DNA of 64,000 nt from Siphonodentalium dalli. Taxonomy: Eukaryota; Mollusca; Scaphopoda; Gadilida; Siphonodentaliidae. Positions within the stretch are counted from its first letter, which is position 1; each line of letters opens with the position of its first letter. Position numbers and translations under genes: made by a program. This document shows positions 6,512-61,501 of this stretch, in pieces. The stretch spans positions 210,158,151-210,222,150 of the forward strand of contig CP136065.1 in NCBI GenBank assembly GCA_032622095.1, read 5' to 3'. Under the pieces are notes generated by a model, which was not told the origin of the DNA, searched no databases, and saw only the letters and a list, made by a program, of their open reading frames with translations.

Positions 6512-6709
6512 TATAAAATAAGAAAAAATTATTAAAATTGTAAAAAATTGTAAAAAATTATAACAAATGATGGAAAATTGTTTTAGGCCAATGCATTCTC
6601 TTATATATGCGAGGCGACCTATGGACGACTGGCATATATAAGAGAATGCATTGGCACAGGGTATATCGGTTGATACAAAAATCGGACTTGGCACTGAAAG
6701 GGTTAAAGA
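6512..6709 (-). mobile_element. Family B TTAA element, left-truncated, nested in A1
   Basis: One hairpin module (6586-6655) is followed by a B terminus containing ATCGGACTTGGCACTGAAA and GGGTTAA. The opposite terminus seen in other B copies is missing; the sequence starts abruptly at TATAAAATAAG. Confidence 0.65.
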
Positions 6710-6841
6710 TCCTGTGGCAGTGCATTCTCTTATATATGTGAGTCTCCCATAGGGAGCTTCACATATATAGGAGAATGCACTGGCTTACAAAGTGAAGGTA
6801 AATATTGTTAGGTTGATGTATTCTCTTAAAAGCTTATATAT

Positions 6842-7285
6842 GCCCGCCATATCAAATCCAGTTGTAAGTCGGGATTTTTTTTACCCTGTGCCAATCCATT
6901 CTCTTATATATGCGAGTCGACCATAGGTCGCCTCGCATATATAAGAGAATGCATTGGCCTAACAATTTTTTTAAATAAATGTTTCTGACAATTTTTAGGA
7001 CATAAAATAAAAAACATCCATTACCCTGCAGGGAGCCCCACACATATATAGAAGCATATCGAAGAGTGTTGTCTGCTCATGTTTGTCTGGGGCTCTGTAT
7101 GGGTGAAATTATAAAATTGTTAAAGAATACAAGAACAAATTATTAAAATTGTAAAAAATTGTTAGGCCAATGCATTCTCTTATATATGCGAGGCGACCTA
7201 TGGTAGACTCGCATATATAAGAGAATGCATTGGCACAGGGTAAAAAAATCCCGACTTACGACTGGATTTGATATGGCGGGGTCAC
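6842..7285 (-). mobile_element. E0: GTGACCCGCC-type element nested in a hairpin
   Basis: The ends are GCCCGCCATATCAAATCCAG (left, missing GTGA) and its inverse ending GGCGGGGTCAC. There are two hairpin modules, at about 6890-6957 and 7167-7233. The unique middle with GAGCCCCACAC and CTCATGTTTGTCTGGGG is in reverse orientation relative to E1-E3. ATAT flanks both ends (6838-6841 and 7286-7289), consistent with the 4-bp target duplications of E1 and E3. Confidence 0.75.
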
Positions 7286-7374
7286 ATATATGCGAGGATC
7301 CCTATGGCAGACTCGCATATATAAGAGAATGCATTGGCACAGGGTTTTCAATTTTTTTTAGGAAGCTCCAGTCA

Positions 7375-9350
7375 TGGAACGGTTAAGAACAATACTGCTA
7401 CTCTGAAAACTTCGGGAAAATCATACGGGTGACATCTGAGAAATTCATAGTAAACTTCTAGTCACTTATTGTTGAAATTATGAATATTAAACCAGACCTA
7501 TCCCTTTAACTCTTTGAACCCTGGACTATATATGTAAAATGCCCCATTCCCTTGGTTGTATGACAAAATGAGGATGATTAAAATGATATATAAACCGCTT
7601 TACAATAGACTCAAACACATATAATTCAATTTGGATGCATTGAAAAAGAAAACACTAAGATTAAATCATAAATGAGTACATCTCAAGTGGTTGAGCTGTT
7701 ATGTCATGCCCACCAACAATTATCCCCAGGTTTCCCTGTACATAGTAACAGTATATTTATTGACAACATTTGTTAATGACAATTACCTCAGATGTTTCAA
7801 AGGGCATCAGCTGCTCAGTTTTTCGGAGGTTATATATATAACGGCGTTAGTTTTTTAAAATTGATATTTAAATTATTTTTTTTAATTTGAGCAACAAGCT
7901 CAATCTAAAAAAAACATTTTTTTTTAAATCAAACTGTTTTAACGATCAAAATGTGCGCCTCTGTCAAGATCAAAATATGCCTGCAGGCCCCTCCGACGCT
8001 GTTTAGCCTGTTTCACCTAGTATCTTACATGAACGACTCTGAGATATACATGTATTCAGTATTGAACAGTTATCAATTCCCTATGTAACACTGAAATCTA
8101 TATGTAACACACCACAATCCCTCTTTACATGACGTATGTCAGCTGATCAGTTTTCTGGCCAACTGGGTTCAAATCGTTAAACAACCATGTGGCGCTACTC
8201 TGAAAAAGTTTGGGAATTGATTTGGGTGACATCTAAATATGAAACAAGCAGTCGCAGACGACGGTATCCCCCACCGAATTGTGCAGTTGGGGAAGTGCAT
8301 TCTCAATAATGTTTGCGCTCTCAGTATGTGCTAAACAAGAGGTGGGATTTTGTCAAAAAGCCTGGATTGCGAATTCATTTTAGGACTGACATTTGTGGAA
8401 ATTAGCCATGTGACGTCGTCCATTTGCACCAAAAATAATAAACAAAGTCCAATTACTCTGCTGAAAATATCCAGCCGGACCTGGTTTTCAAACTTGTTCT
8501 AGATACTGGTCATGTGAACTCATATACCAAAACATCTTTGAAATCCGTTGACATTTGTGGAAATGAGCCCTGTGACGTCGTCCATTTGCAAGTCCAAAAG
8601 TCCGCTTAAAATATCCGGCCGGACCTGGTTTGCGAACTCGTTCTAGATACTGGTCAAGTGAACCCATATACCAAATATCTTTGAAATCTGTTGACATTTG
8701 TGGAAATGAGCCCTGTGACATCGTCTATTTGCTATTTGGTAAATTCGACAAAAATAATAATCAAAGTCCAATAACTCTGGTAAAAATATCCGGCCGGATC
8801 TGGCTTGCGAACTCATTCAAGATAATGGTCAGGTGAACTCATATACCAAATATCTTTGAAATCCGTTGAGATTTGTGGAAATGAGCCCTGTGACGTCGTC
8901 TATTTGCTATTGGGTAAATTCGACAAAAATAATAAACAAAGTCCAATAACTCTGGTAAAAATAACCGGCCGGACCTGGCTCGCGAACTCATTCTAGGTAA
9001 TATACCACAAATCTTTTAAATCCGTTAACATTTGTTCAAGTTATGACTCTTACAATTTCGGGACAGACGGACAGACCGGACAGACGGACGGACGGAACCC
9101 ATTCCTATATATCCCCCGCAAATTTCAATTTGGCGGGGGATAATTACTAACGTGTCATTTATCGGTTATCCCAAATGAACTTTTCAGCCACATTATGACA
9201 AATATTGCTAAATTCAAATGTTGTCCATCCCCAATATGCACCTAGACCTAACGTTTTAAGAACAATAATGTATACTGCAACTCTGAAAATATTGGGAATT
9301 GATTCCGGTGATATTTGAGAAATTCATAGTAAACGGCCAGTCACTTATCA
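7375..9350 (+). repeat. Three dispersed diverged copies of a short sequence (about 7375, 8175, 9252)
   Basis: Segments at about 7375-7475, 8175-8250 and 9252-9350 share the order: AACGGTTAAGAACAATA or similar, CTACTCTGAAAA, a TTGGGAATTGAT-type block, GTGACATCTGAGAAATTCAT, and CAGTCACTTAT. This suggests old tandem duplications of a unit of 0.8-1.0 kb. One later took in the tandem-core element at 8264. The rest of 7395-8263 is unannotated and contains no credible gene. Confidence 0.5.
8264..9141 (+). mobile_element. Tandem-core element (pearl/Helitron-associated type), copy 1
   Basis: It starts TATCCCCCACC and ends with GCGGGGGATAA. The core has about four tandem units, marked by ATCCGGCCGGACCTGG at 8469, 8613, 8788 and 8963 (spacings 144, 175 and 175 bp). 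After the core is an ACGG/CAGACGG microsatellite (about 9063-9100). Tandem cores plus an ACGG microsatellite and complementary C/G-rich termini match the plan of bivalve pearl-like elements, which have been linked to Helitrons. Assignment rests on architecture, not alignment. Confidence 0.65.
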
Positions 9351-10310: not shown

Positions 10311-10311
10311 T

Positions 10312-10830
10312 ACCCATAGGAAATGTTCAGATAATAAGTTTAACCCTTTCTATACTAAGTTAACCCTTTCTATACTAAGCATCATTGATGAGTCGTTATC
10401 CCATAGGAAATGTTCAGATAATAAGTTTAACCCTTTCTATACTAAAGCATCATTGATGAGTAGTTATCCCATAGGAAATGTTCAGATAATAAGTTTAACC
10501 CTTTCTATATTAAAGCATTATTGATGAGTAGTTATCCCATAGGAAATGTTCAGATAATAAGTTTAACCCTTTCTATACTAAAGCATCATTGATGAGTAGT
10601 TATCCCATAGGAAATGTTCAGATAATAAGTTTAACCCTTTCTATATTAAAGCATTATTGATGAGTAGTTATCCCATAGGAAATGTTCAGATAATAAGTTT
10701 AACCCTTTCTATACTAAAACATCATTGATGAGTAGTTATCCCATAGGAAATGTTCAGATAATAAGTTTAACCCTTTCTATACTAAGCATCATTGATGAGT
10801 ATTTATCCCATAGAAAATGTTCAGATAATA
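10312..10830 (+). repeat. 68-bp tandem satellite, eight copies
   Basis: AAATGTTCAGATAATAAG begins at 10321, 10408, 10476, 10544, 10612, 10680 and 10748, and in diverged form at 10815. The period is 68 bp except for the first unit, which has an internal 20-bp duplication of TTAACCCTTTCTATACTAAG. Two variants alternate in the middle (TATACTAAAGCATCATT and TATATTAAAGCATTATT), showing a 136-bp higher-order repeat. The unit matches the terminal part of family C elements (37257-37320). Confidence 0.9.
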
Positions 10831-11024
10831 ATTAAGTTCAACAAACGAGGTCCTTTGTTTATTTTATTATTAAAACATTTCACTCGATAAATAGGTTCCT
10901 TCTGCATTTTTATTTATCTGTTGTCTGCTTTTATCACCTTAACATCCCTCCAAATGAATAATAGATCATTCCAATGTACACTTTTTAACTGACTGGGAGA
11001 ATCCATTAATATAGACCGGGTTAA
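10831..11024 (+). mobile_element. C1: right part of a family C TTAA element
   Basis: After the satellite the sequence continues with CAACAAACGAGG, TCTGTTGTCTGCTTTTAT, ACATCCCTCCA, GAATAATAGA and GGGAGAATCCATT, and ends ACCGGGTTAA. C4 (37257-37736) has the same order. The satellite therefore appears to be an expanded left end of this C copy. Confidence 0.7.
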
Positions 11025-11058
11025 TTAAGACATATATAGTTAGCATGTAGTTAACAGT

Positions 11059-12928: not shown

Positions 12929-13385
12929 GTGACCCGCCATATCAAATCCAGTCGTAAGTCGGGATTTTTTTTACCCTGTGCCAATGCATTCTCTTATATA
13001 TGCAAGTCGACCATAGGTCGCCTCGCATATATAAGAGAATGCATTGGCCTAACAATTTTTTACAATTTTAATAAATTTTTCTTGTATTCTTTAACAATTT
13101 TATAATTTCACCCATACAGAGCCCCAGACAAACATGAGCAGACGACACTCTTCTATATGCTTCTATATATGTGTTGGGCTCCCTGCAGTGTAATGGATGT
13201 TTTTTATTTTATGTCCTAAAAATTGTAAGAAACATTTATTTAAAAAAAATGATAAAAAATTGTTAGGCCAATGCATTCTCTTATATATGCGAGGCGACCT
13301 ATTGTCGATTCGCATATATAAGAGAATGCATTGGCACAGGGTAAAAAAATCCCGACTTACGACTGGATTTGATATGGCGGGTCAC
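12929..13385 (+). mobile_element. E1: GTGACCCGCC-type miniature element
   Basis: Inverted ends GTGACCCGCCATATCAAATC and the inverse finishing GATATGGCGGGTCAC; 457 bp. The 4-bp AAAT occurs directly outside each end (12925-12928 and 13386-13389). Two inverted hairpin modules lie at 12981-13048 and 13266-13335, with the outer CCCTGTG side facing out. The middle has GAGCCCCAGACAAACATGAG. The transposon superfamily is unknown to me; 4-bp duplications occur in several rare groups. Confidence 0.85.
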
Positions 13386-13802
13386 AAATACAGTTATAAA
13401 TGCTTCATATGGCCATGAGGAATCAGAAGCTTCCCAATCTGGTTGATGTTTCCATTTTATCATTTAGCTGTGTTCAGCAGAAATCGGTACGACCATAAAA
13501 ACACCAATCCGTACCTTGAACTATGACCCTAGCCATAGACTAGTATGATTTTGTCTTCATGATACTCCTAAATCTTGAGGTAACTAACATTTTCCTGAAT
13601 GAATTGAAGACTCTAATGCTAAAGATATGTCTCTAATTTAGAATCTTTAAAGTTTGTCTGATGCCGGTGGCTATTGGCTGTCAGCCTGTCAGAGCTCTAC
13701 TTATAATTGTCACGATCAATACATTTTACAAGCCTAATTGAAATACTTCTTTTTTTCGATAGCCATGGATGAGTTTACTCATGCTGTTTTATACAGAGAA
13801 TT
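13386..13802 (+). repeat. Spacer copy 1 of a tandem duplication with E1-E3
   Basis: 417 bp between E1 and E2, almost identical to 14251-14659. Differences include an extra 8-bp CTGTCAGC-type duplication here and a few substitutions. A transcript is not evident. Confidence 0.9.
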
Positions 13803-14250
13803 GTGACCCGCCATATCAAATCCAGTCGTAAGTCGGGATTTTTTTTAACCCTGTGCCAATGCATTCTCTTATATATGCGAGTCGACCATAGGTCGCCTCG
13901 CATATATAAGAGAATGCATTGGCCTAACAATTTTTTACAATTTTAATAATTTGTTCTTGTATTCTTTAACAATTTTAGAATTTCACCCATACAGAGCCCC
14001 AGACAAACATGAGCAGATGACACTCTTCTATATGCTTCTATATATGTGTGGGGCTCCCTGCAGTGTAATGGATGTTTTTTATTTTATGTCCTAAAAATTG
14101 TAAGAAACATTTATTTTAAAAACTTGTTAGGCCAATGCATTCTCTTATATATGCGAGGCGACCTATGGTCGACACGCATATATAAGAGAATGCATTGGCA
14201 CAGGGTAAAAAAAATCCCGACTTACGACTGGATTTGATATGACGGGTCAC
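13803..14250 (+). mobile_element. E2: middle E copy, probable recombinant
   Basis: Same structure as E1, 448 bp. The left flank is AATT (13799-13802) and the right flank is AAAT (14251-14254), so it lacks matching target duplications. Internal markers are mixed: AATAATTTGTTCTTG on the left matches E3, whereas CTATATGCTTC and GCAGTGTAATGG to the right match E1. The last bases (GACGGGTCAC) match E3 and not E1. Confidence 0.85.
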
Positions 14251-14659
14251 AAATACGGTTATAAATGCTTCATATGGCCATGAGGAATCAGAAGCTTCCC
14301 AATCTGGTTGATGTTTCCATTTTATCATTTAGCTGTGTTCAGCAGAAATCGGTACGACCATAAAAACACCAATCCGTACCTTGAACTATGCCCCTAGCCA
14401 TAGACTAGTATGATTTTGTCTTCATGATACTCCTAAATCTTGAGGTAACTAACATATTCCTGAATGAATTGAAGCCTCTAATGCTAAAGATATGTCTCTA
14501 ATTTAGAATCTTTAAAGTTTGTCTGATGCCTGTGGCTATTGGCTGTCAGAGCTCCACTTATAATTGTCACGATCAATACATTTTACAAGCCTAATTGAAA
14601 TACTTCTTTTTTTCGATAGCCATGGATGAGTTTACTCATGCTGTTTTATACAGAGAATT
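14251..14659 (+). repeat. Spacer copy 2 of the tandem duplication
   Basis: 409 bp, near-identical to 13386-13802. It separates E2 from E3. Confidence 0.9.
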
Positions 14660-15113
14660 GTGACCTGCCATATCAAATCCAGTCGGAAGTTGGGATTTTT
14701 TTACCCTGTGCCAATGCATTGTCTTATATATGCGAGTCGACCATAGATCGCCTCGCATATATAAGAGAATGCATTGGCCTAACAATTTTTTACAATTTTA
14801 ATAATTTGTTCTTGAATTCTTTAACAATTTTATAATTTCACCCATACAGAGCCCCAGACAAACATGAGCAGACGCCACTCTTCTAGGTGCTTCTATATAT
14901 GTGTGGGGCTCCCTGCAGGGTAATGGATGTTTTTTTTATTTTATGTCCTAAAAATTGTAAGAAACATTTATTTAAAAAACATGATAAAAAATTGTTAGGC
15001 CAATGCATTCTCTTATATATGTGAGGCGACCTATGGTCGACTCGTATAAGAGAATGCATTGGCACAGGGTAAAAAAATCCCGATTTTCGACTGGATTTGA
15101 TATGACGGGTCAC
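14660..15113 (+). mobile_element. E3: GTGACCTGCC-type miniature element
   Basis: 454 bp with AATT at both ends (14656-14659 and 15114-15117), a clean 4-bp target duplication. Its second hairpin has a short deletion in one stem (GACTCGTATAAGAG), so that stem pairs less well. Confidence 0.85.
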
Positions 15114-17271: not shown

Positions 17272-17522
17272 TTAACCCTTTGAGTGCCAGGTTGATTTTT
17301 GATTCAACCCATATACCCTGTGCCAATGCATTCTCTTATATATGCGAGTCGACCATAGGTCGCCTCGCATATATAAGAGAATGCATTGGCCTAAAAAATG
17401 GGGTTTTTTTAGTTTTTTTTTACAATTTTTTACAATTTTAATAATTTATTCTTATATTCTTTAACAGACTTATTTGTAGGTTTAGGGCCGATAAGATCGG
17501 CCCCTGGCACTCAAAGGGTTAT
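17272..17522 (+). mobile_element. B2: family B TTAA element
   Basis: TTAACCCTTTGAGTGCCAGG at the left and CCTGGCACTCAAAGGGTT at the right, followed by a degenerate TTAT. It holds one hairpin module (about 17319-17391). The right half contains GGTTTAGGGCCGATAAGATC. TTAA targets with a CCCTTT start are the piggyBac signature. Confidence 0.85.
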
Positions 17523-18141
17523 TAAACACATGGCTCTTTAGAACCCCAAATTTATGTATACATAATTTTGTAAGAGATATCTCAATTTATACCTAATGTA
17601 CCCGGAAGATTTCTGTTTTGTTTCTTACATATTTTTGTAAATTTGAGATCATTTTGTTTGTGCCAGTTAAAATTTACAAACTCTTTCGATGTGCGGAAAA
17701 TTTTCCCCATTAGAACATCAAAATGTTCCGAGGTTTTTAACTGGTGGAATATGATTTATACCGGCACAGCCCGAGCAGAGAATCATGGCATGATCTAGGA
17801 GTGCTTGAGAGATGAGGAACTGACATGAGGTTATGTGGCAATGCTGGATGCAGCATAATAAATCATCCGCAGGTTAGAGATACAACATTATAAAACATCA
17901 CACCATGGATACTGACTGACTTGCACAGTTTAATCTCACTGTTTCCGATTACATCATAAATCATCTAAAAATAACTGCAGCTATTTGTGGAAACATCTTC
18001 ACTGCTAAATATATACCATGTAAAAGTACGATATTCAAATTCCATGGAAATGAACTTAATGTTTATAGAAGAGAATGTTAGTTCTCACAGAACAAGTAGA
18101 ATATCAAAACAGGCAAAATAAATTACAATCAATTATGGCAG
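17523..18141. other. Mostly unannotated; contains one arm-related repeat
   Basis: At about 17690-17800 the sequence AACTGGTGGAATATGAT and ATCATGGCATGATC resembles the arm of the hairpin at 18142-18612. Nothing else is identified. Confidence 0.4.
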
Positions 18142-23574: not shown

Positions 23575-23934
23575 AGTCCAGGAACATTAGTCCAAAATGA
23601 GCACAGTGAGGAAGTAAACAGCACTGAAGAGGTGACATACAGTAATGCCCTAAATAATCAGCTCCTCAACCACAGCAGAATTATGGGTAACTTGTCAGGA
23701 TTTAGTCGGAAATATGGCTTGTTGCCATTCATCGGAAAGCTCTCACTGAAAAGTTACCCATAAGTGAGAGCTTTCTGATGAATGGCAACAAGCCATATTT
23801 TCGACTAAATCCTGAAAAGTTACCCATAATTCTGCTGTGGTTAAGGAGTCGATTATTTAGGGGTTTGCTGTAGTCCAGGAACATTAGGCCAAAAAGAGCC
23901 CATGCAGTGAGGAAGTAAACAGCACTGAAGAGGG
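23575..23934 (+). repeat. 60-bp direct repeats flanking F2
   Basis: 23575-23632 and 23872-23934 share AGTCCAGGAACATTAG and GTGAGGAAGTAAACAGCACT, with a 5-bp indel. The right copy begins directly at the right TA of F2. Confidence 0.85.
23638..23872. mobile_element. F2: TA-flanked palindromic miniature element
   Basis: TACAGTAATGCCC to a degenerate GGGTTTGCTGTA. It has extra bases at the centre (GAAAAGTTACCCATAAGTGA), making it about 20 bp longer than other F copies. Confidence 0.85.
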
Positions 23935-24163: not shown

Positions 24164-24304
24164 TTAACCCTTTCAGTTCCAAGTCCGATTTTTGTATAGA
24201 GCTCTTTCCATCAATGTATCATATTATTATAATCAATAAATTTGAAAAATGATCAAGGAAATATGGGTTGCTACAAAAATCGGACTTGGCACTGAAAGGG
24301 TTAA
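24164..24304. mobile_element. B3: short family B TTAA element without the hairpin cassette
   Basis: TTAACCCTTTCAGTTCCAAG and TCCGATTTTTG mirror CAAAAATCGGACTTGGC and ACTGAAAGGGTTAA. The middle (about 70 bp) lacks the hairpin modules seen in B2, B4 and B5. It is either a deletion derivative or the pre-cassette form. Confidence 0.85.
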
Positions 24305-31621: not shown

Positions 31622-31804
31622 TTATCTAAACTTTTCCCACAAATGGGAATTAGAAGGAAAACGAATTATACTCCACTTGTATTATCATTTCACCGGTCTG
31701 CGTCTGCTTATATTTCCTTAACATCCCTCTATAATAGAATAATAGACCATTCCAGTATACTGTTATAACTGATGGGAGAATCCATTTAGTAGAGAAATGG
31801 TTAA
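31622..31804 (-). mobile_element. C2: partial family C TTAA element
   Basis: Contains TCTGCGTCTGCTTATATTTC, AACATCCCTCTA, AATAATAGACCATTCC and GGGAGAATCCATTTAG, and ends ATGGTTAA. The terminal TTAA is also the left TTAA of A2. Confidence 0.7.
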
Positions 31805-32299
31805 CACTTTCATGACGGGAGCTGCACTGTTGTAACATTAAAGACCCTGTGCCAAGCATTCTCCTAAAGATGCGAGTTGACAATAGGTCGCCTCGCATAT
31901 ATATGAGAATGCATTGGCCTAACAATTTTTTATCATTTTTTATAAGTTTTACATTCTTTAATAATTTTTATCATTTTTTGTAATTTTATCTTAATTTCTA
32001 TAATAATTATTATCATTTTGTCTTATATTCTTTAACAATTTTATCATTTTTTATAAATTTTTCTTACATTCTTTACCAATTTGTTTTATTTTTTATCATT
32101 ATTTCTTATATTCTTTACCAATTTTTTATCATTTTTTTCTTACATTTTTTAACAATTATAAAAATAATATATTTTTTTTTAGGCCAATGCATTCTCTTAT
32201 ATATGCGAGGCGACCTATGGTCAACACACATTTATAAGAGAATGCATTGGCACAGGGTTTTCGCAAAAATTCAGGAAGCTCCCATCATGAAAGTGTTAA
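31801..32299 (+). mobile_element. A2: family A TTAA element with T-rich spacer
   Basis: TTAACACTTTCATGACGGG to CATGAAAGTGTTAA (499 bp). It has a first hairpin at about 31855-31918, a long ATTTTTTATCATTTTT-type low-complexity spacer, and a second hairpin at about 32183-32250. One stem of the second hairpin is damaged (CAACACACATTTATAAG). Confidence 0.85.
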
Positions 32300-33194: not shown

Positions 33195-33259
33195 TTAACC
33201 CTTTCTGTGACGGGAGCTGGTGCAGTATTAAAGATCAAGTGCCAGTGCATTTTCTTATA

Positions 33260-33512
33260 TTTATTACACGCTTGTTCCTAGAAGTACAGTGTTATTGCCG
33301 TTCCATATTCACAAATCCGTATGCAACGTACGTTCCATACGCATCTCGTTGACGTAAAATGACGTACATGACGTTCGCCTCAACCACGAAACTGGAACTA
33401 TTTAAATAAAAGAATCACCACACATGACAAACACGCCCTGTATGAGCCTAAATAAACCTTCTAATCCTGTATTTTTAATGCACGGATTCTAGGACGCGAA
33501 GCATGTAATAAA
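33260..33512. mobile_element. K0: 253-bp inverted-repeat element inside A3
   Basis: TTTATTACACGCTTGTTCCT at the left mirrors AGGACGCGAAGCATGTAATAAA-like sequence at the right. The inner part is non-palindromic and has three TGACGT words at 33350, 33360 and 33369. No open frame of note. Confidence 0.65.
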
Positions 33513-33669
33513 CACAGAACAACAAGATGTGTAAATGGGTTTGTCGATACGGCACTCGTGCTGTCGCGGAAGGATAGAACTCGAGGCGCAAGCGCCTCTC
33601 GTTCTATCCTTACGCGAAAGTACTCGTGCCGTATTGACAAACCCATTTACGCATCGTGTCGTTCTGTGT
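33512..33669. mobile_element. K2: 158-bp palindromic element
   Basis: ACACAGAACAACAAGATG mirrors CATCGTGTCGTTCTGTGT. The inner arms AAATGGGTTTGTC, GGCACTCGTG and GGATAGAAC pair, with apex GGCGCAAGCGCC. GC-rich, with the same type of ends as K1. Confidence 0.75.
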
Positions 33670-33753
33670 ATATATGTGAGTCTCCCATAGGAGATATATA
33701 AGAGAATGCACTTGCTTACAGATCAAAGCAAATATTGTTAGGCTAATGTATTT

Positions 33754-33908
33754 AAGAAATAGCTCTAAATTGTTTCGATTTAGGTTATGCAGTTATAACC
33801 AAAAAGTTTGAACATAAATTCTATGTGTGGAACGCAGTTATAGAAAATTTATCTTCAAACTTTTCGGTTATAACTGCATAACCGTAATCGAAACAAGAGT
33901 TATTTCTT
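33754..33908. mobile_element. K3: 155-bp palindromic element
   Basis: AAGAAATAGCTC mirrors GAGTTATTTCTT. The inner arms TTATGCAGTTATAACC and AAAGTTTGAA pair, with a loop near 33830. Confidence 0.75.
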
Positions 33909-35695: not shown

Positions 35696-36052
35696 TTAAC
35701 ACTTTAATGGCAGGAGCTGCACTTGCACAGCATTAAAGATCCTGTTCCAGTTCAGTTTCTTATATATGCATGTCTCCCATTGGTAGCCTCAAATATAGAA
35801 GAGAATGCACAGTCTTACAAGGTCAAGGTCAATATTGTTAGGCCAATGTATTCTCTTATATATGTGAGGCTCCCTATGGGAACCTCGAATATAAAAGAGA
35901 ATGCACTGGCTTGAAAGATCAAGGTAAATATTGTTAGGCCAATGCATTCTCTTATATATGCGAGGCTTCCTATGGGAGACCCGCAAATATAAGAAATGCA
36001 TTGGCACAGGGTTTTCCCAAATTTTCAGGAAGCTCCAGTTATTGAAAGGTTA
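35696..36052 (+). mobile_element. A4: family A TTAA element with three hairpins
   Basis: TTAACACTTTAATGGCAGGA to TTATTGAAAGGTTAC (terminal TTAC instead of TTAA). Three hairpins of the CTCCCATNGG variety lie at about 35748-35815, 35845-35910 and 35938-36005, separated by AAGGTCAAGGTCAATATTGT-like linkers. This shows the cassette can gain modules. Confidence 0.8.
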
Positions 36053-37098: not shown

Positions 37099-37256
37099 TG
37101 CTACTTTATTCAGGGCCGATGTAAAGTCTAAGCTGATAAATTTTGACCTCTTTTTATATTATTGTAAGACTACGCTATGAAGTGAAGTCTATATTCTTAT
37201 TCCTATTTTTGATCAAAATAATACAATAAAATAAGAATCAAAACCAACAAATAGCT

Positions 37257-37736
37257 TTAACCATTTCTATTAATGAGTAGTTATCCCTTAGGAAATGTTC
37301 AGATAATAAGTTAAAATTTTTTACCATAGGTCGTTTTGTAGAACTTATTATCTGAACATTTCCCACGAATAATTATTAACCCTTTGAGTGTCAGGGGCCG
37401 ATCTCATCGGCCCTAAACCTACAAAATAAGTCTGTTAAAGAATATAAGAATAAATTATTAAAATTGTAATAAAAAAAAAATTGTTAGGCCAATGCATTCT
37501 CTTATATATGCGTGGCGACCTATGGTCGACTCGCATATATAAGAGAATGCATTGGCACACGGTATATGGGTTGTTACAAAAATCGACCTGGCACTCAAAG
37601 GGTTAATCCTTCAGCATGTTCTATTATCTGTCGTCTGCTTATATTTCCTGAACATCCCTCCAGATGAATAATAGACTATTCCAATATATACTTTTATAAT
37701 TGAATGGGAGAATCCATTTAGTATAGAAAAGGTTAA
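37257..37736. mobile_element. C4: family C TTAA element carrying a B insertion
   Basis: TTAACCATTTCTATTAATG to AGTATAGAAAAGGTTAA. The left part (TAGTTATCCCTTAGGAAATG and TTCAGATAATAAG) is the source-like sequence of the 68-bp satellite at 10.3 kb. B4 is inserted at an internal TTAA. Confidence 0.8.
37376..37606 (-). mobile_element. B4: family B TTAA element nested in C4
   Basis: TTAACCCTTTGAGTGTCAGG to CCTGGCACTCAAAGGGTTAA. One hairpin module (about 37487-37556) and CCGATCTCATCGGCCCTAAA on the other side. The TTAA is duplicated at both junctions (37376-37379 and 37603-37606). Confidence 0.9.
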
Positions 37737-38009: not shown

Positions 38010-38268
38010 TTAACCCTTCCATGACCAGATCTTCCTGAAATTGTGGAAAAAGCTGAGCCAATGCATTCTCCCATAGGGAGACTTACATATATAAAAGAAT
38101 GCATTAGCCTAACAATATTTACCTTCACCTTGTGAGCCAGTGCATTCTTATATATATGCGAGTCTCCCATACGGTAAAAATCTATGGAAGACTCGCATAT
38201 ATAAAAGAATGCACAGGCACAGGATCTTTGATGCTGCACCAGCGCATCCCTAGCGATGAAAGAGTTAA
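38010..38268 (-). mobile_element. A5: family A TTAA element
   Basis: TTAACCCTTCCATGACCAG to AGCGATGAAAGAGTTAA. The first hairpin is deleted in one stem (GCATTCTCCCATAGGGAG). The second (about 38137-38217) has an enlarged apex. Confidence 0.8.
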
Positions 38269-38284
38269 TGGTATTTTGTCTGAA

Positions 38285-38686
38285 TTAACCCTTTACCCAA
38301 CAGAAGGGCCATGTGCCAATGCATTCTCTTATATATATGCGAATCGACCATAGGTCGCCTCGCATATATAAGAGAATGCATTGGCTTAACACATTAAAAA
38401 TTATAAAATTGTTAAAGAATGTAAGAAAAAATGGTAAAAAGTGTTAAAAAATTTTTTTTTTTAGGCCAATGCATTCTCTTATATATGCGAGGCGACCTAT
38501 GGTCGACTCGCATATATAAGAGAATGCATTGGCACATGGCATAACTGTAACTATCACAATGTGGTCAAGGAGCCGGTTCCAATGATATCCATATTTGTAT
38601 GGTTCTATTGAGACAGACCGAAGATAATTTAGGCTGTTGAAGCTTTATTTGGCCGGTTTTGGCCAGTTTGTTGGGTAAAGGGTTAA
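38285..38686 (+). mobile_element. J1: family J TTAA element
   Basis: TTAACCCTTTACCCAACAGA to GTTTGTTGGGTAAAGGGTTAA-type end, 402 bp. Two inverted hairpin modules (about 38317-38386 and 38463-38534) are followed by a 150-bp unique tail containing CTATCACAATGTGGTCAAGG and GAGACAGACCGAAGATA. J2-J4 have the same layout. Confidence 0.9.
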
Positions 38687-40126: not shown

Positions 40127-40344
40127 ATACAGTAATGCCCTAAATAATCGACTCCTTAACCACAGCAAAATTATTGGTAACTTTTTAGGATTTAGTCGGA
40201 AATATGGCTTGTTGCCATTCATCGGAAAGCGCTCAGTGAGAGCTTTCCGATGAATGGCACCAAGCCATATTTCCGACTAAATCCTGAAAAGTTACCCATA
40301 ATTCTGCTGTGGTTAAGGAGTTGATTATTTAGAGCATTACTGTA
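40127..40344. mobile_element. F5: TA-flanked palindromic miniature element
   Basis: TACAGTAATGCCCTAAATAA to GAGCATTACTGTA, full palindrome with GCGCTCAGTGAGAGC apex. Confidence 0.9.
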
Positions 40345-41429: not shown

Positions 41430-41827
41430 TTAACCCTTTACCCAACAGAAGGGCCCTGTGCCAATGCATTCTCTTATATATGCGAGTCGACCATAGGTCG
41501 CCTCGCATATATAAGAGAATGCATTGGCTTAACACATTAAAAATTATAAAATTGTTAAAGAATGTAAGAAAAAATGTAAAAAGTGTTAAAAAAAGATTTG
41601 TTTAGGCCAATGCATTCTCTTATATATGCGAGGCGACCTATGGTCGACTCGCATATATAAGAGAATGCATTGGCACAGGGCATAACTGTAACTATCACAA
41701 TGTGGTCAAGGAGCCGGTTCCAATGATATCCATATTTGTATGGTTCTATTGAGACAGACCGAAGATATTTTAGGCTGTTGAAGCTTTATTTGGCCGGTTT
41801 TGGCCGGTTTGTTGGGTAAAGGGCTAA
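41430..41827 (+). mobile_element. J2: family J TTAA element
   Basis: Nearly identical to J1 in layout and sequence: hairpins at about 41460-41528 and 41606-41674. The right terminus is CTAA instead of TTAA. Confidence 0.9.
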
Positions 41828-42168
41828 AAGAAGTCTGGTGCTAGAAATTCAATAGTTGGGTTTGTAAATACCTTGCCATCATGACATGCCGAAATATTTT
41901 AAACAATGATTTTCTCGAGCATGGTGACACAAACACATTTTTTTACAAACTCAATTTCCTGGTTGCCACATTTTCCCGGAAGTTGGATCTATATAGGGTG
42001 GAAATGTTAACCTCTGGTAATGGCAGTTCACAGAGGTTTGGATTATTTGCTGCATTGCTGCCTATTCATGCAATGTTGGGCCTTAAAAACTATATAATCA
42101 TTCCACATAGTTCTCTTTTGGTACAAATGAGTAATCCAGTATTACATATTGGGAGAATTTTTTATTGT
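41828..42168. other. Unannotated stretch with a 100-residue frame
   Basis: The plus-strand frame 41881-42183 starts with ATG and has a plausible composition but no recognisable motif, and it runs into the A6 terminus. I see no splice signals that would make it an exon. Confidence 0.35.
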
Positions 42169-42430
42169 TTAAATTTTCCATGACTGGTGCTTCCTGAAAT
42201 TTTTCGAAAATCCTGTGCCAATGCATTTTCTAATATATACAAGTCTCCCATAGGAAGCCTCGCATATGTAAGAGAATAGATTGGCCTAACAATATTTACT
42301 TTACCTTGTAAGCCAGTGAATTGTCTTATGTATGTGAGGCTCCCTATGAGAGACTCGCATATGTAAGAGAATGCACTAGGACAGGGTCTTTAATGCTGCA
42401 TAAGCGAAGCTCCCATCATGAAAGGGTTAA
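42169..42430 (-). mobile_element. A6: family A TTAA element
   Basis: TTAAATTTTCCATGACTGG to CATGAAAGGGTTAA, with two CTCCCATAGG-type hairpins at about 42218-42285 and 42312-42376. Confidence 0.8.
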
Positions 42431-43788
42431 ATATATATCTGTATTGTCTTACGCGAGTCTCCCATAGGGAGCATTGCATATGTAAAAGAATACAGTGGCC
42501 TAAAAAATATTTACCTTGACTGTGCAAGCCAGTGCATTCTCTTATATATGTGAGGCTCCCTATGGGAAACTCACATATCCAAGAGAATATACTGGCGCAG
42601 GGTCTTTAATGCTGCACCAGTGCAGCTCAGGCCTGGAAATCTCAAGGCGGGCTGGCGGGCTGCCCGCCTACAGCCCGCCTAGAATTTTCCAAGGCGGGCT
42701 TTTTATAGCCCGCCTCGTCTACGATAGGACATTTATTATTTAGTTATTTTATTGTATTTAATGAGTAAAATACTGCATCGAAATCGTAATTATATTGTAC
42801 AGTGTGGGGACTGCGCATGCGTGACTTGACGGTAATGTCAAATGGGAATTATAGCGGAATCAGTAAATTCCGGAACGAACTGTTTCGTAAATCTGATCTT
42901 TTGATCGATTCTCACACATTTTATGACCAAAATAAATAATTTCTCTTCATTAAAGATTGAGCTTACAATATATTTCACTGGATAAAATGACACATGTTTG
43001 TGGATAGTGAGAACCAAATGTCACTGTCCCAATTAAGTTCAACCTTTCGTTCCGTTTCCGGTTCCTATCAGTGAAAATTGTATTTAGCTTGCAGCCGTCT
43101 TTTATCGCTTCGATTGACAATATTTTAATATAATTAGCTAAATGTATCCACGTATTCTAGTTTACACTGTTATTCAATTATTAAAGTTCAGAAACTATTT
43201 TCTATGTCCCCAATTGCAAACACCCAGTAAATCTATAGATAGCGACTTGACCGCTGCAAGCAGCAGTCTGCGATCGACAATGGAATATGGATTACTTTGA
43301 GAGAAAAAGCAGTCAATATTCAAGTGCAAATATACTGCATTTAATATTGTTCTTGATTGTGTATTTTACGTAAAATTACACTTTCATGGAGAATGCTTTT
43401 AATGTGGACAAACTCACCCAATTCCGTTGCATGGGTTGGACACCGACTGACAAATTGTTGAGTACAAATACTCTTACATTTTGTTTCTTGTACATATAGA
43501 TTATCACAACATATAAAACCATTTTATTACCATAATTACTGTGGGGGATTTTGACATTCACAACTCTGTGGACACTTTGTTTCCACATGAAGAAAATTAA
43601 TTTAAATGGAGTTATACAACATCAAAAATAGACAAACTAACGGCAGTAGTAACTCAGATAAAATAAATCATAACTTTAAAAGTTGAGGAGGGCTATAGCC
43701 CTCCTAGGCATATCTAGGAGGGCTATTAATAGCCCTCCTGGATTTTCTAGATCGCCAGCCCTGCCAGCTCCGGTCATGAAAGTGTTAA
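42427..43788 (-). mobile_element. A7: family A element split by a 1.1-kb hAT-like insertion
   Basis: Begins at the TTAA shared with A6 and has hairpins at about 42440-42500 and 42532-42600. It then breaks after CACCAGTGCAGCT (about 42620), and resumes with CAGCTCCGGTCATGAAAGTG before TTAA at 43785-43788. Confidence 0.8.
42620..43761. mobile_element. hAT-like non-autonomous element with GC-rich subterminal hairpins
   Basis: Left CAGGCCTGGAAATCT and right (read inward) CAGGGCTGGCGATCT fit hAT-style CAGGG...-type ends. The flanking 8-mers TGCAGCTC and GCCAGCTC match at 6 of 8. Subterminal hairpins GGCGGGCT/AGCCCGCC (about 42645-42715) and GGAGGGCTAT/ATAGCCCTCC (about 43684-43740) lie at the ends. 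About 950 bp of AT-rich interior lacks a transposase; a 70-residue minus frame (43376-43588) is not recognisable. Confidence 0.7.
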
Positions 43789-44028: not shown

Positions 44029-44387
44029 TTAAAGACATATTGTGGACTTGTTCGGGTGCGTGGAACTGATAAGTTAGTACTCAGGCGCTATGTCAACTTG
44101 AGGATCTAGCATTCTACTAATATCATCGAAATTTTCAAAGAAATCGACCGTACCAGTCCATAGAAAATATTGTCTGAACTATGCTCAAATATTTACATTT
44201 CAATTCAGAAGGCAACTGTTGGCCATAAACTAACACAAATGATTTCGTCATTGCATTTAATTAATTTAGAAGTATCACGGTGTGTGTTGTCAATTTAGAT
44301 TAATAATCGTAAAAAATAAAAACTTTAAGCAAGAATATTCTCCTTTTCTATTTTATCACCCTATTGGAGTGTTTCACATCACTTTAA
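44029..44387 (+). mobile_element. H2: family H TTAA element
   Basis: TTAAAGACATATTGTGGAC to TTTCACATCACTTTAA, about 60 bp longer than H1 because of extra sequence around CAACTGTTGGCC. Its right TTAA is the left TTAA of B5. Confidence 0.8.
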
Positions 44388-44843
44388 CCCTTTCAGTGCC
44401 AAGTCCGATTTTTGTATCAACACATATACCCTGTGCCAATGCATTCTCTTATATATGCGAGTCGACCATAGGTCGCCTCGCATATATAAGAGAATGCATT
44501 TGGCCTAACAAATTTTCATCATTTGTTATTATTTTTTTTTTTATTTTTTCTTATATTCTACTCTCTTTCATTGCCAGACTTATTTTGTAGGTTTAGTGCC
44601 AGGGAATCTCACGTTTTTCATGGGCATCAAAATTATTACTATGAATACTTGTTGATAGTTTTTAGTTATAACATGCCCCTATGGTTTTATCAAGTTTGTT
44701 TTTAAATACGCTATAGCATGCTTAAGCATACCCAAAAAAAATTAAACCCAAAAATATATAAAAAAATTAAAAAAATTTAGGGCCGATTTTACAGACCGTA
44801 AATTAGGGCCGATGAGATCGGGCCCTGGCACTGAAAGGGTTAA
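44384..44843 (+). mobile_element. B5: long family B TTAA element
   Basis: TTAACCCTTTCAGTGCCAAG to CTGGCACTGAAAGGGTTAA. Hairpin module at about 44435-44507. The right half is extended by about 200 bp containing AACATGCCCCTATGG and a GGGCCGATGAGATCGGGCCC segment. The extra DNA has no recognised origin. Confidence 0.85.
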
Positions 44844-44904
44844 ATGTAAATTCCAGTGGAGATGAGTACATTTACTGATGTATTTTTGCATTTTCAGACA
44901 CAGC

Positions 44905-45765: not shown

Positions 45766-45909
45766 GGAATTTTAAAGTGTTAATATTGTATGTGTTATAA
45801 AGAGGATTAAAGTCATTATAACCTAACAAACAGGGACAATCATGATAGGTAGCAGCACACATGCTGGAGGGTTTCATGTATGGATCGAGCTTGCTATCAT
45901 TTCTATAAA

Positions 45910-46126
45910 TACAGTAATGCCCTAAATAATCGACTCCTTAACTACAGCAGAATTATGGGTAATTTTTCAGGATTTAGTCGGAAATATGGCTTGTTGCCAT
46001 TCATCGGAAAGCTCTCAGTGAGAGCTTTCCAATGAATGGCATCAAGCCATATTTCTGACTAAATCCTGAAAAATTACCCATAATTCAGCTGTGTTTAAGG
46101 AGTCTATTATTTAGGGCATTACTGTA
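45910..46126. mobile_element. F7: TA-flanked palindromic miniature element
   Basis: TACAGTAATGCCCTAAATAA to GGGCATTACTGTA; full palindrome with minor arm mismatches. Confidence 0.9.
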
Positions 46127-46134
46127 TAGCAAAT

Positions 46135-47642: not shown

Positions 47643-48300
47643 GAATATGTTTAGTTCAGTGAATTAAGTATCTAGGTACAGTAATGCTCTAAGTAATCGA
47701 CTTCTTAACCACAGCATAATTATGGGTAACTTTTCAGGATTTAGTCGGAAATATGGCTTGTTGCCATTCATCGGAAAGCTCTCAGTGAGAGCTTTCCGAT
47801 GAATGGCAACAAGCCATATTTCCAACTAAATCCTGAAAAGTTACCCATAATTCTGCTGTGGTTAAGAAGTCGATTACTTAGAGCATTACTGTATCTGTCA
47901 CTTGCATAAGAAGAAGTTAATGAAATGAAAGTTAAATGCCATGACCATGTAGTAGAATTTATGAGCCTATTTTTCAATGTAAACATGCAAAGCCGTCAAA
48001 CCATTTTTAAAGCTAAATTTGTGACCAGAAATATTATCACAAGCCTTTTTCTGAATTTTGGGTACAAAATGATTACAGAATTGAATCAGTTTCAAAGATT
48101 TGCTGTGTATTCTTACTTCAAATGATTATGACTCTATTAATCTAGAGATTATAAGATTATGCTATATTCACATATTAAGAATGTTTAGTGTGTCAAAAGA
48201 TTGAATCAGGATCCAGCAACATTAAGATTTACAATGAAATCAGGTAACTTGTTTCAGTTACAAGGCAATAGCTTATCTGGCGCATTCCATGGATATTTGT
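47643..48300 (+). repeat. Tandem duplication copy 1 (with F8 inserted)
   Basis: AATATGTTTAGTTCAGTGAA, CACTTGCATAAG, AATCTAGAGATTATAAGATT, ATGAAATCAGGTAACTTGTT and ACAAGGCAATAGCTTATC occur in the same order in copy 2 (48473-48745). Copy 1 additionally has F8 and about 173 bp (47962-48135) absent from copy 2. Confidence 0.85.
47677..47893. mobile_element. F8: TA-flanked palindromic miniature element with paralogous empty site
   Basis: TACAGTAATGCTCTAAGTAA to GAGCATTACTGTA. Copy 2 of the host duplication has the uninterrupted TATCTAGATATCTTTCAC at about 48493, where copy 1 has TATCTAGG, then the element, then TATCTGTCAC. The comparison supports a single TA duplicated on insertion. Confidence 0.95.
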
Positions 48301-53238: not shown

Positions 53239-53250
53239 ACAATTATTTCT

Positions 53251-53386: not shown

Positions 53387-53539
53387 TTAACCCTTCCATG
53401 ACTGGAGCTTCCTGAAATTTTGCAACAACACTGCTTATATATGTGAGGCTCCCTATGGGAGACTCACATATATAAGAGAATGAACTGGCACAGGGCCTTT
53501 AATGCTGCGCCAGCACAGCTCCCGCCATGAAAGGGTCAA
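53387..53539 (-). mobile_element. A8: short family A TTAA element with one hairpin
   Basis: TTAACCCTTCCATGACTGG to CATGAAAGGGTCAA (153 bp). A single CTCCCTATGGGAG hairpin. One-module counterpart of A4. Confidence 0.85.
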
Positions 53540-55024: not shown

Positions 55025-55059
55025 AAAAAAATTTAAAAAAAATAATTCGGGGAACAATC

Positions 55060-55411: not shown

Positions 55412-55811
55412 TTAACCCTTTACCCAACAAACCGGCCAAAAACGCCTGAATAAAGCTTCAACAGCCTAAAATATCTTCAGTCTGTCTCAATAGAACCATA
55501 CAAATATGGATATCATTGGAACCGGCTCCTTGACCACATTGTGATAGTTACAGTTATGCCCCGTGCCAATGCATTCTCTTATATATGCGAGTCGACCATA
55601 GGTCGCCTCGCATATATAAGAGAATGCATGGGCCTAAAAAAAAAAAAAATTAACACTTTTTACAATTTTTTCTTACATTCTTTAACAATTTTATAATTTT
55701 ATAATGTGTTAAGCCAATGCACTCTCTTATATATGCGAGGCGACCTATGGTCGACTCGCATATATAAGAGAATGCATTGGCACAGGGCAGTTCTGTTGGG
55801 TAAAGGGTTAA
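55412..55811 (-). mobile_element. J3: family J TTAA element
   Basis: TTAACCCTTTACCCAACAAA to TCTGTTGGGTAAAGGGTTAA-type end, 400 bp, with the unique tail first. Hairpins at about 55565-55633 and 55713-55781. Confidence 0.9.
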
Positions 55812-57356: not shown

Positions 57357-57559
57357 TTAACACTTCCATGACCGGAGTTTCCTGAAATTTTGCGTAAACC
57401 CTGTGCCAATGCATTCTCTTATATATGCGAGTCTTCTTTATAGAAGTCTCCCATATATAAGAGAATACATTGGCCCATTTTAATACCTTGACTTTGTAAG
57501 CCAGTGTATTCTCTTATGTATGTGAGGCACCAGCACAGCTCCCTTCATGAAAGAGTTAA
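57357..57559 (-). mobile_element. A9: family A TTAA element
   Basis: TTAACACTTCCATGACCGG to CATGAAAGAGTTAA. The first hairpin is complete; the second has lost one stem (ATGTGAGGCACCAGCACAGC). Its right TTAA is the left TTAA of H3. Confidence 0.8.
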
Positions 57560-58077
57560 AGTGATGTGGAACAGTCTGCTGAGGTATTCAGAACGAATAT
57601 CAAATGATGATGCCAAAACATATTATTTTCATAATTTTGATAACCAAATAGACAGAAAACATTGTCATTGTTATAATGGAAACACTTGAAGTGACTATTG
57701 TTGTCTGAATCATTGCTGTATGTTATCACCCAATAGTTCATTCCAAATAAATAAGAAAATATTTACATTTTGCATAGTTCAAACGTTCTCCGAAATAGTT
57801 TGGTCACCGTCGTTGCAATTTTCGACAATCTTAGTTGATTTCTACATTCTTCAGTTTTTGGATACCAACTTATCAGATTTATTCGTTAACTCTTTCATGA
57901 CTGGAACTTCCTGAAATTTTTCAAAAACCCTGTACCAATGCATTCTCTTATATATGCGAGTCTCCCTATGGGAGACTCACATATATAAGAGAATACATTG
58001 GCCTAACAATATTTACCTTGACACCAGCGCAGCTCCCGTCAAGAAAGGTTTAAACTGACTCCACAATATGTCTTTGA
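57556..58077 (-). mobile_element. H3: family H TTAA element carrying an A insertion
   Basis: TTAAAGTGATGTGGAACAG to CCACAATATGTCTTTGA (terminal TTGA). Inverse orientation to H1 and H2. The middle has diverged and A10 is inserted close to the right end. Confidence 0.65.
57896..58053 (-). mobile_element. A10: one-hairpin family A element nested in H3
   Basis: TTAACTCTTTCATGACTGG to CGTCAAGAAAGGTTTAA; one CTCCCTATGGGAG hairpin at about 57936-58000. Confidence 0.8.
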
Positions 58078-59271: not shown

Positions 59272-59753
59272 CAAGCCTTGAAATAGTGCGTCTGTCATTT
59301 GCAGAATGAGGTCCCCAGAGGGTGAATTTAGTGATGCTACCCCGCATAGCACGCTAGCATCACCAAATTCACCCTCTGGGGACCTCATTCTGCTTAGACA
59401 TAATATCTTCTCTGCAAAGTTTCTTTATCATCAAATTTATATAGAAACTTCTTCACATAGATTCTATTTCCTTTTTTTTAGTTTAGTTTCTCTATATCCC
59501 CAAATTGGCAGATGACACATTGCATAATCGAGGTTCCCAATGGGTGTACATCACAATATTCACCATTTGGGAGTTTCAATCTGAGTCAAAATCTCCCATA
59601 GCGAAGCCTTGAAATAGTGTGTCTGTCATTTGCAGAATGAGGTCCCCAGAGGGTGAATTTAGTGATGCTACCCCGCATAGCGGGTTAGCATCACCAAATT
59701 CACCCTCAGGGGACCTCAATCTGCAAATGACAGACACACTATTTCAAAGCTTG
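59272..59753 (+). mobile_element. D10: composite D element
   Basis: CAAGCCTTGAAATAGTGCG to ACTATTTCAAAGCTTG, with 8-mers ACGAGTAA and ACTAGTAA matching at 7 of 8 at the outer ends. The right arm is not the usual one: at 59603 a second full terminus (AAGCCTTGAAATAGTGTG) begins, so a 151-bp D5-like unit replaces the right arm. Confidence 0.8.
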
Positions 59754-60550
59754 ACTAGTAATAATATTGTTTACTTCGAAAATTTAGCTGTCTCCCTTCT
59801 ATTAAATGCTGGAGAAGACCAAAGACGCTGAAAGCGATTAAATTGAGCTATCCGTTGATTAAATACTAATGATAGCAATTTATTATGTCAGGTCTTGCGA
59901 TTAGCCAATCAGCGTCGATCAATAAGGATGGTGTATGAACCCATGTTAGGTCAGTGACCCCCATATGAAATCAATATTAGATGCTTACCCACCATCTTGT
60001 TTTTCAATAAAAAATTCTGTCACCTCCAGGATATTATTGGTGTATTTTGGCACCAAGAAAAGGGATATCTGTTGGAAATAATTTTCTGCGAATTTAAAGA
60101 CATCATACCATGTACCAAAACCTGCATGCGATATATTTAGGAATTCTAAAGACTCATAAATTAACTAACAAACTGAATTGTGTTGTCCATGAGTAGTACT
60201 TCTGTTGATCAGCCATTGACTCAATGCGTCGACTTTCAACACCCATGGTGCCTCACTGCGATGTTACTTACATAAGTTAATAGCCATAGATGACACATTT
60301 AACTTACCAAATTAAAATAAATTACAGCGACATTTAATTAAAGGGATATGCTGGATTTTGTCCACTGACACAGCAAGATCAATATTAGGCTCAGCCTCGC
60401 CTAATATTGATCTCACTTCGCCTCACATGACACCATATCTGACCACTAAGCATCCTGTAACTTAATTATAATATTAGGTTGGAAAATCTTTCTCAACCAA
60501 TATTCCAATATCGAAGTGAAGGCCTAAGCCTGATTAATGGTAACAAAATG
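59754..60550. other. Mostly unannotated; one small perfect hairpin
   Basis: AGATCAATATTAGGC and GCCTAATATTGATCT pair at 60389-60425, with a short loop. Otherwise nothing is recognised. Confidence 0.45.
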
Positions 60551-60974
60551 CTGAGTTTGCAAATAGTGTGTCTGTCATTTGCAGAATGAGGTCCCCCAGA
60601 GGGTGAATTTAATGATGCTATCCTGCACAGCAGGCTAGCATCACCAAATTCACCCTCCGAGAAATTCATCTTCTGTAGTCTATAGTCTCAAGTTAACATA
60701 GTTTTTAGTTACTTTTTCCCTTCTGGGAAGTTTCTATATCCCCCAATTTGCAAAAGATAAAATGCATAATCGAGGGGACTAATGGGTGATCATCAACTTC
60801 AACAGGGAACATATCAATCTGATCATAGGTCTCCCACAGCAGTTGAGTCATTAGCAGAATGAGGTCCCCAGAGGTTGAATTTGGTGATGCTAGCCCACAG
60901 TGCAGGATAGCGTCACTAAATTCACCCTATGGGCACCTCATTCTGCAAATGACAGACACACTAGTTCAAGGACT
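60551..60974 (+). mobile_element. D11: hAT-like miniature element, eroded
   Basis: Both hairpins are present, the left one damaged (CACCCTCCGAGAAATTCATC). Ends are degraded (TTTGCAAATAGTGTG, CTAGTTCAAGGACTA). Confidence 0.75.
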
Positions 60975-61132
60975 ACAATATCATTTTACAGGGTCGTGGT
61001 GACAGTATAGATGTTGTGATGCGTCTCCACTGCCAAAAATCTGGACAATATGCTCAACATTTGTCATGCCCCAAAAAAGTATGTGCCAACAGAAATATCA
61101 CGATAGCAATTGTTCTGATGAGTTAACCCTTT

Positions 61133-61501
61133 ACCCAACAAACCGGCCAAACAAAGCTTCAACAGCCTAAAATATCTTCGGTCTGTCTCAATAAAACCAT
61201 ACAAATATGGATATCATTGGAACCGGCTCTTTGACCACATTGTGATGGTTACAGTTATGCCCTGTGCCAATGCATTCTCTTATATATGCGAGTCGACCAT
61301 AGGTCGCCTCGCATATATAAGAGAATGCATTGGCCTAAAAAAATCTTTTTTTACCATTTTTTCTTACATTCTTTAACAATTTTATAATTTTTAATGTGTT
61401 AAGCCAATGCATTCTCTTATATATGCGAGGCGACCTATGGTCGACTCGCATATATAAGAGAATGCATTGGCACAGGGCCCTTCTGTTGGGTAAAGGGTTA
61501 A
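61133..61501 (-). mobile_element. J4: family J TTAA element
   Basis: TTAACCCTTTACCCAACAAA to GTTGGGTAAAGGGTTAA, 369 bp. Hairpins at about 61265-61333 and 61404-61475 are almost perfect, and the unique tail is slightly shortened. Confidence 0.9.

Follow-up and report, generated by a model that had tools for sequence, protein, structure and literature searches.

Miniature transposons in which different terminal repeats surround one conserved internal region have been described in the coral Acropora as CMITEs. According to the accessible part of that report, the six CMITE families are ~100 bp long, are all of the TTAA/piggyBac type with TTAA targets and, in most families, CCCTTT-type ends, and share a 75-base internal region of unknown origin; one copy with another family's interior, tandem arrays, and a composite formed by nested insertion (CMITE-IN) are also described there (Wang et al. 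2010, PMC2872659). Here, we describe a comparable case in one 64-kb window (the whole stretch of DNA analysed, to which all counts refer) of contig CP136065.1 of Siphonodentalium dalli. A near-perfect palindrome of ~71 bp, hereafter called the module, is present in 38 copies in the window, and all 38 are located inside 22 miniature transposons of four families (assignment by inspection; for the damaged copies Q3 and Q7, it rests on one recognizable end or on neighbouring Q sequence). The families were named P, Q, R, and E, and these names need not match the A, B, and J used in the earlier note on this DNA. The shared unit, designated K, is found in P, in E, in an element named M and, as one half, in R.

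Apart from the lengths and the restriction of all families to the piggyBac type, the features of CMITEs listed above have counterparts in the window, and here too it is the interior, and not the terminal repeats, that is better conserved from family to family. Unlike CMITEs, the present elements contain paired near-perfect hairpins with a spacer, have a base-exact edge, and include one carrier with 4-bp duplications other than TTAA. Relative to what the accessible text of the coral report describes, CMITEs provide a precedent within piggyBac-type elements, of which K is a more extreme form; the paired hairpins and the presence in a second transposition system are new (PMC2872659). A conserved interior that spreads inside an unrelated DNA transposon family is also seen in MER6, where, in the section of that report available, a short interspersed nuclear element V domain is carried by a mariner-type element, whereas here a hairpin pair is distributed across several miniature families (PMC6887750). 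The piggyBac/TTAA miniature elements in general resemble P, R, and part of Q in their TTAA duplications and CC[C/T]T starts, but the elements of this window have a palindromic interior common to several families. The 60-base CMITE query printed in the coral report (PMC2872659) yielded nothing above chance in the window (best nhmmer E-value, 4.2; best blastn match, 11 bases), and no report of the K unit was found in the literature searched by words and literal sequence within one library. Two module patterns and three end patterns gave no match among viral contigs, and the Rfam search (at the gathering score) and the tRNA search gave none. Among genome contigs, a collection without eukaryotes, the exact module pattern occurred once, in a Clostridium metagenome-assembled genome; the palindrome does not continue around this match, which was taken as chance.

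Matches to the 20-base module start CCCTGTGCCAATGCATTCTC with at most three mismatches numbered 30 (0.00 expected in the window), and those to the apex CGACCATAGGTCG with at most two mismatches numbered 24 (0.33 expected). An iterated nhmmer profile search gave 76 matches, which correspond, after merging, to both strands of the 38 palindromes. P and E each contain 8 modules in 4 copies, R contains 4 in 4 copies, and Q contains 18 in 10 copies (M included in both Q counts), confirming the statement of the earlier note that the same palindromic module of ~70 bp occurs in four families. Its description of facing module pairs in most copies of A, E, and J and of a common apex applies in part: facing pairs are present in all four copies of both P and E, but each of the four R copies has a single module, and most Q modules have the apex TCTCCCATAGGGAG or a close variant, not CGACCATAGGTCG. 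Seven of the 10 Q copies carry at least two modules and one carries three, and several Q modules are damaged or truncated. The K unit is bounded by CCCTGTG...CACAGGG, with the pattern CCCTGTGCCARTG, and ranges from 174 to 413 bp among 12 units measured; as RNA, the whole P4 unit is predicted to form one long hairpin (-150.8 kcal/mol). The ends of the carriers are TTAACCCTTTACCCAACA in P, TTAACCCTTYCATGACNGGAGCT in Q, TTAACCCTTTSAGTGCCARG in R, and GTGACCCGCC in E, and their outer flanks were grouped into six classes (T5/T6 in P, T3/T4 in Q, T1 in R, and T2 in E).

P, E, and R share an identical interior. The module consensuses of P (8 modules), E (8), and R (4) agree at 71/71 bp, and the divergence of modules between families (P-E, 2.1%; P-R, 2.0%; E-R, 3.0%) falls in the range found inside single families (P, 1.1%; E, 3.2%; R, 2.9%). 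Outer junctions were aligned for 34 modules, i.e. all 38 less B3.T4p, B4.mid, B7.T3, and B9.T4p, which have no readable outer junction. Between bases -40 and -5, the mean identity of the six outer-flank consensuses is 0.26 (0.13-0.47 at individual positions) against 0.27 by chance, and from CCCT inward the identity is 1.00 at 32 of 34 positions, the two exceptions being differences on the T4 side of Q. These are consensus values, the E consensus outside the edge being blurred by variation in T-run length, and single copies vary at the edge (CCAT in P1, CCCC in P3, CCGT in R3, and TCCT in several Q). The switch from flank to unit is thus base-exact and located at CCCTGTG. Local alignments of the outer parts, from which the TTAACCCTTT-type start of P, Q, and R was left out, revealed no clear similarity across families (lowest counts 9 and 11 of 300 shuffles among 18 pairs). 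The shared unit of P, E, R, and M extends beyond the module to an oriented AT-rich spacer: in all seven spacer comparisons, the same-orientation alignment beat all 400 shuffles, and the alignments score less when reversed, by a small margin for P-R and R-M. The Q spacer is short and different, with no such match in three of three comparisons (24, 399, and 176 of 400 shuffles as good). A candidate third module remnant in the E interior (~14033-14058) had an E-value of only 1.8 and is not claimed.

Two types of target duplication are associated with the carriers. TTAA flanks both sides of P1, P3, P4, R3, R4, R0, M, Q9, and others and is changed on one side in P2, R2, Q4, and Q8; R1, Q3, and Q7, each with a damaged end, were left out of this scoring. 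P, Q, and R have a common start, TTAA followed by CCCTTT (CACTTT, CCCTTC, or other variants in some Q), and are different beyond it. CCCT is present at both ends of all four P copies and at the scored R ends, and the Q ends are mixed, with CCCT at some and CACT or CTCT at others. The combination of TTAA and CC[C/T]T is given as a mark of piggyBac-type elements in the part of the coral report available (PMC2872659). By target duplication and terminal motif, P, Q, and R are accordingly putative piggyBac-type (TTAA) miniature elements. In E, with ends GTGACCCGCC...GGCGGGTCAC, neither a TTAA target nor CC[C/T]T ends were found; it has GTGACC ends and 4-bp AAAT or AATT duplications instead and therefore appears to use a transposition system other than that of P, Q, and R. 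Thus, the earlier note was right to call the ends unrelated as far as E is concerned, but P, Q, and R have TTAA + CCCTTT in common. Candidate superfamilies for E may include Sola- or Chapaev-like groups, in which the duplications are also 4 bp long. No transposase or autonomous partner was found in the window among 10 reading frames scanned against Pfam, which gave below-cut-off matches only (8 of the 14 frames of at least 110 amino acids plus two shorter ones; the other six and all other shorter frames were left out). E4 lies within a Q module and R1 at a TTAA of the Q1 end, which suggests that Q was already in place when E and R moved with the module.

Ends and interiors are combined differently in different elements. 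In the module tree (33 rows; five short modules were left out), the modules of P, E, and R are mixed and do not separate by family, and a group of seven identical rows includes members of all three; full agreement between module and terminus trees, which according to the earlier note would speak for a single ancestor, was not observed. In approximately unbiased (AU) tests, a clade of P alone was rejected (p 0.0003, the log-likelihood being lower by only 2.8), as was one of E alone (p 0.028), and one of R alone was not (p 0.868). The branch uniting P, E, R, and M has support of 98/93 and is the one starred branch. M has the ends of Q: its distances to Q are 0.225 for T3 and 0.252 for T4, against 0.218 and 0.281 between Q copies. 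Its modules differ by 8-9% from those of P/E/R and by 23% from those of Q, are of the P/E/R type at 11 of 11 diagnostic sites (seven on the T4 side and four on the T3 side), and are accompanied by a matching spacer, so that the same ends surround two different interiors in M and the other Q copies. The same is true of R and R0. Ahead of the CCCTG edge, R0 shares 42 of 45 bases with each of R1 and R4; beyond the edge, it shares 15/40 and 14/40 with them, respectively (chance, ~11). A lax profile search listed no module in R0, which may predate K or may have lost it. Together, M (Q ends with a P/E/R interior) and R0 (R ends without a module) indicate that ends and interiors combine differently, and the view of the earlier note that one unit is present across different termini fits an interior that behaves as exchangeable. 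Left-right homogenization of modules within Q copies was considered and rejected, as modules from the T4 side tend to cluster with those of the same side in other copies, a grouping that amounts to one change with support of only 63/73.

We consider it probable that K is a passenger unit that has been captured by, and exchanged between, non-autonomous miniature elements. K consists of two near-perfect palindromes of ~71 bp in opposite orientation with an oriented AT-rich spacer between them and CCCTGTG...CACAGGG as bounds; R has only half of this unit, and the interior of Q would be an older relative that has diverged but kept these edges. K resides within several non-autonomous families and, in this window, nowhere else. 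P, Q, and R would be moved by a TTAA (piggyBac-type) transposase acting on TTAACCCTTT-type ends, and E by another transposase generating 4-bp duplications. K would have entered the families by capture or recombination, and would not have been inherited from a common ancestor whose ends later diverged, candidate routes being nested insertion, end-joining capture, and template switching and conversion between elements. In the simplest view, it would be structural cargo that is tolerated and has persisted in an active lineage. The sequence itself shows the identical interior, the base-exact boundary, two types of target duplication, and ends with two different interiors; we infer which transposases act, that the parts were joined through recombination or end joining, from which family to which K passed, and that an active source existed elsewhere in the genome. 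Several points weigh against this account. An edge that is base-exact in all six flank classes is the trace expected of an independent mobile element, and illegitimate capture alone does not explain it. The evidence comes from one window, without outside relatives, and 18 of the 24 branches of the module tree are open, most being weak because the rows are short and nearly identical. The Q modules are themselves related to K, though diverged from it, and share its CCCTGTG edge, and the formal test on M alone is weak, since holding the Q and M modules together was not rejected (p-AU 0.139); M may therefore be a relic of an early Q state and not a recombinant. R0 could likewise descend from an R element from which K was lost.

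It is less likely that K was once a stand-alone hairpin-ended miniature transposon (CCCTGTG...CACAGGG, with a piggyBac-like CC[C/T]T start) that landed in older elements, the composites then spreading via their outer ends as reported for the coral CMITE-IN, a precedent described in the accessible text (PMC2872659). All six flank classes have the same sharp edge. It matches CC[C/T]T, which a random edge would do with a probability of 0.0053 given the base composition here, so a past piggyBac-type life of K is a live rival. The outer arms of E (44-46 bp on the left and 44-45 bp on the right in E1-E3) nearly mirror each other as far as the edge, as if E were a palindrome split at its centre; the left junction of E2 reads TTAA/CCCTG; and R0 is an R-type element without K. 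However, E2 is the only one of 34 junctions with TTAA ahead of CCCT, the four bases at this place being TATA, TTTA, AAAA, AAGA, AGGG, and TATG in the six classes. Such flanks are unexpected for TTAA insertion, with outer parts of P and of E that differ by only 4-5%, and insertion of K as a TTAA element at its present places was rejected on the single TTAA junction. No matching duplication flanks the unit at the 34 junctions of the six flank classes, P, Q, and M included, except for the symmetric T-run/A-run of E, where a TA duplication is allowed only by the symmetric centre. By inspection, none of the 38 modules is free-standing outside P, Q, R, or E elements in the window. With no free cassette and no consistent target duplication, independent transposition, one of the possibilities raised in the earlier note, is not supported.

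Retention of K for a function appears improbable as the main explanation. In this case, a subterminal signal (protein binding, a cruciform, or an aid to replication or recombination) would raise the copy number of the carrier, and elements of different systems would hence come to carry the hairpin unit. In P, 3 of 568 module sites have changed against 25 of 884 elsewhere (p 0.0014; p 0.036 against the outer parts alone), but E shows no such slowdown (9/564 vs 24/1154, p 0.58; E1-E3 are array copies and not independent). The module consensus is identical across families, although M, at 8-9% difference, suggests an age beyond their bursts. The pair counter was given 28 of the 38 modules (22 distinct), the other 10 being truncated or having insertions or deletions. 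In these 28, the share of paired cells is 92.7%, compared with 89.8% in shuffles (0/500) and 29-51% when the modules are slid, and 19 cells have changed on both sides, against 8.0 in shuffles (0/500). Counted as pairs, however, those changed on both sides number 4 against 4.0 in shuffles (356/500 as high), and the both-side changes mostly separate Q from P/E/R, which implies few events. The K module as single-stranded DNA has a strong predicted fold (-36.1 kcal/mol, z -14), and among 12 pairs of exact TTAACCCTTT-type ends no more than 950 bp apart, some of them nested, R0 is the only one without a module. On the other side, the distance from module to element end varies from ~20 to 133 bp, R is single-module, one-module Q copies exist, and no module lies beside the isolated Q-type end TTAACACTTTCATGACCGGAGCT near 43763-43788. 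Given the slowdown in P, its absence in E, and both-side changes at only four pairs, a hairpin function is possible.

Still more doubtful is the idea that the hairpin pair is its own kind of mobile unit, excised or copied base-exactly and joining elements without target duplication. If this were true, it could join by capture at cruciform tips, e.g. with E split at its dyad centre, or through a hairpin-recognizing enzyme, and it would jump between, and ride on, families using different transposases. Vertical descent of all four families from one ancestor with only the ends diverged is very unlikely and was rejected: the same unit is present in all of them and stops at the same edge, and P, Q, and R have TTAACCCTTT-type ends in common, but the P/E/R module consensuses show 0/71 differences while the outer parts are at chance identity, two target-duplication types exist, and M and R0 pair ends and interiors differently, so that this descent is already contradicted for P, E, and R.

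An interior common to two transposition systems with a base-exact edge makes the origin of miniature-element interiors testable, a question left open in the accessible part of the coral report (PMC2872659). If ends and interiors are analysed as separate loci, their exchange is countable genome-wide, and the hairpin pair makes it possible to test directly whether copy number is raised by palindromes. The carriers and R0 are listed in Table 1.

Table 1. Positions of the elements carrying K or its modules, and of R0, in the window
Element	Alternative label	Position	Strand	K unit or modules	Remarks
P1	A1	38285..38686	-	K 38309-38539	TTAA element; outer parts ~133 bp (T6) and 20 bp (T5)
P2	A2	41430..41828	-	K 41454-41680	TTAA element, right TTAA changed
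P3	A3	55412..55811	+	K 55559-55787	TTAA element
P4	A4	61123..61501	+	K 61260-61477 (218 bp)	TTAA element
E1		12929..13385	+	K 12974-13341 (368 bp)	GTGACCCGCC ends; duplication AAAT/AAAT
E2		13803..14250	+	K 13849-14205	AATT left, AAAT right; middle of E-spacer-E-spacer-E array
E3		14660..15113	+	K 14704-15069	Duplication AATT/AATT
E4		6843..7285	-	K 6884-7240	Within Q1 module; one end damaged; target in AT repeat, so duplication length not fixed
R1	J1	6504..6706	-	Module 6587-6657	At TTAA within Q1 T4 end; far end truncated
R2	J2	17272..17525	+	Single module 17320-17390	Part of K spacer
R3	J3	37376..37606	-	Single module 37488-37558	Part of K spacer
R4	J4	44384..44846	+	Single module 44433-44501	Longer interior
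R0	J0	24164..24304	-		R-type TTAA ends on both sides, without module
M		31801..32299	+	K-type unit 31845-32257 (413 bp)	Q-type ends on both sides
Q1	B1	6471..7388	+	Modules 6715-6784, 7282-7340	Split by R1 (at TTAA) and E4
Q3	B3	33195..33760	+	T4-side module interrupted (33241-33260, 33669-33715)	Damaged; far end not defined
Q4	B4	35696..36052	+	Three modules	96-bp spacing
Q5	B5	38010..38272	-	Two modules	One with deleted arm
Q6	B6	42172..42430	-	Two modules	
Q7	B7	42431..42645	-	Two modules, one truncated	Element ends damaged
Q8	B8	53387..53538	-	Single module	Truncated
Q9	B9	57357..57559	-	One full and one half module	
Q10	B10	57883..58053	-	Single module (T3 side)	T4-side module lost

Some carriers show further structure. 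E1-E3 form an E-spacer-E-spacer-E array (12929-15113) in which the spacers of ~410-420 bp are near copies and the outermost elements have different 4-bp duplications. The unlike duplications of E2 are as expected from two independent insertions ~410-420 bp apart that were multiplied by unequal exchange, and the array probably arose by such exchange between two nearby E insertions. The three modules of Q4 (35746-36007) are arranged as if a hairpin and short spacer had been tandemly duplicated. The spacers of P1, P2, and P3 (38438-38447, 41580-41589, and 55650-55659), but not that of P4, contain an internal TTAACACTTT, whereby a one-module half of the element is also bounded in the TTAA manner.

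Other repeats were also identified in the window. Further near-perfect palindromes with arms of ~110 bp and centres of 1-15 bp are located at 47674-47896, 45909-46127, 40128-40344, 62074-62290, and 23638-23872; the two that were read (47674 and 62074) start with TACAGTAATGCTCTAARTAATCGACT, suggesting another palindromic miniature family. A tandem array at 10331-10831 comprises 7.1 copies (95%) of a 68-bp unit that contains TTAACCCTTTC, i.e. bases of the TTAA-element ends, and a single stretch related to this unit is present near 37240-37375. Nearly the same open frame of 143 amino acids occurs at 26229-26660 and 28675-29106 on opposite strands, ~2 kb apart, which represents a large inverted duplication in repeat-rich DNA. 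Tandem repeats of 144 and 175 bp, ~90% alike, occupy 8464-9001.

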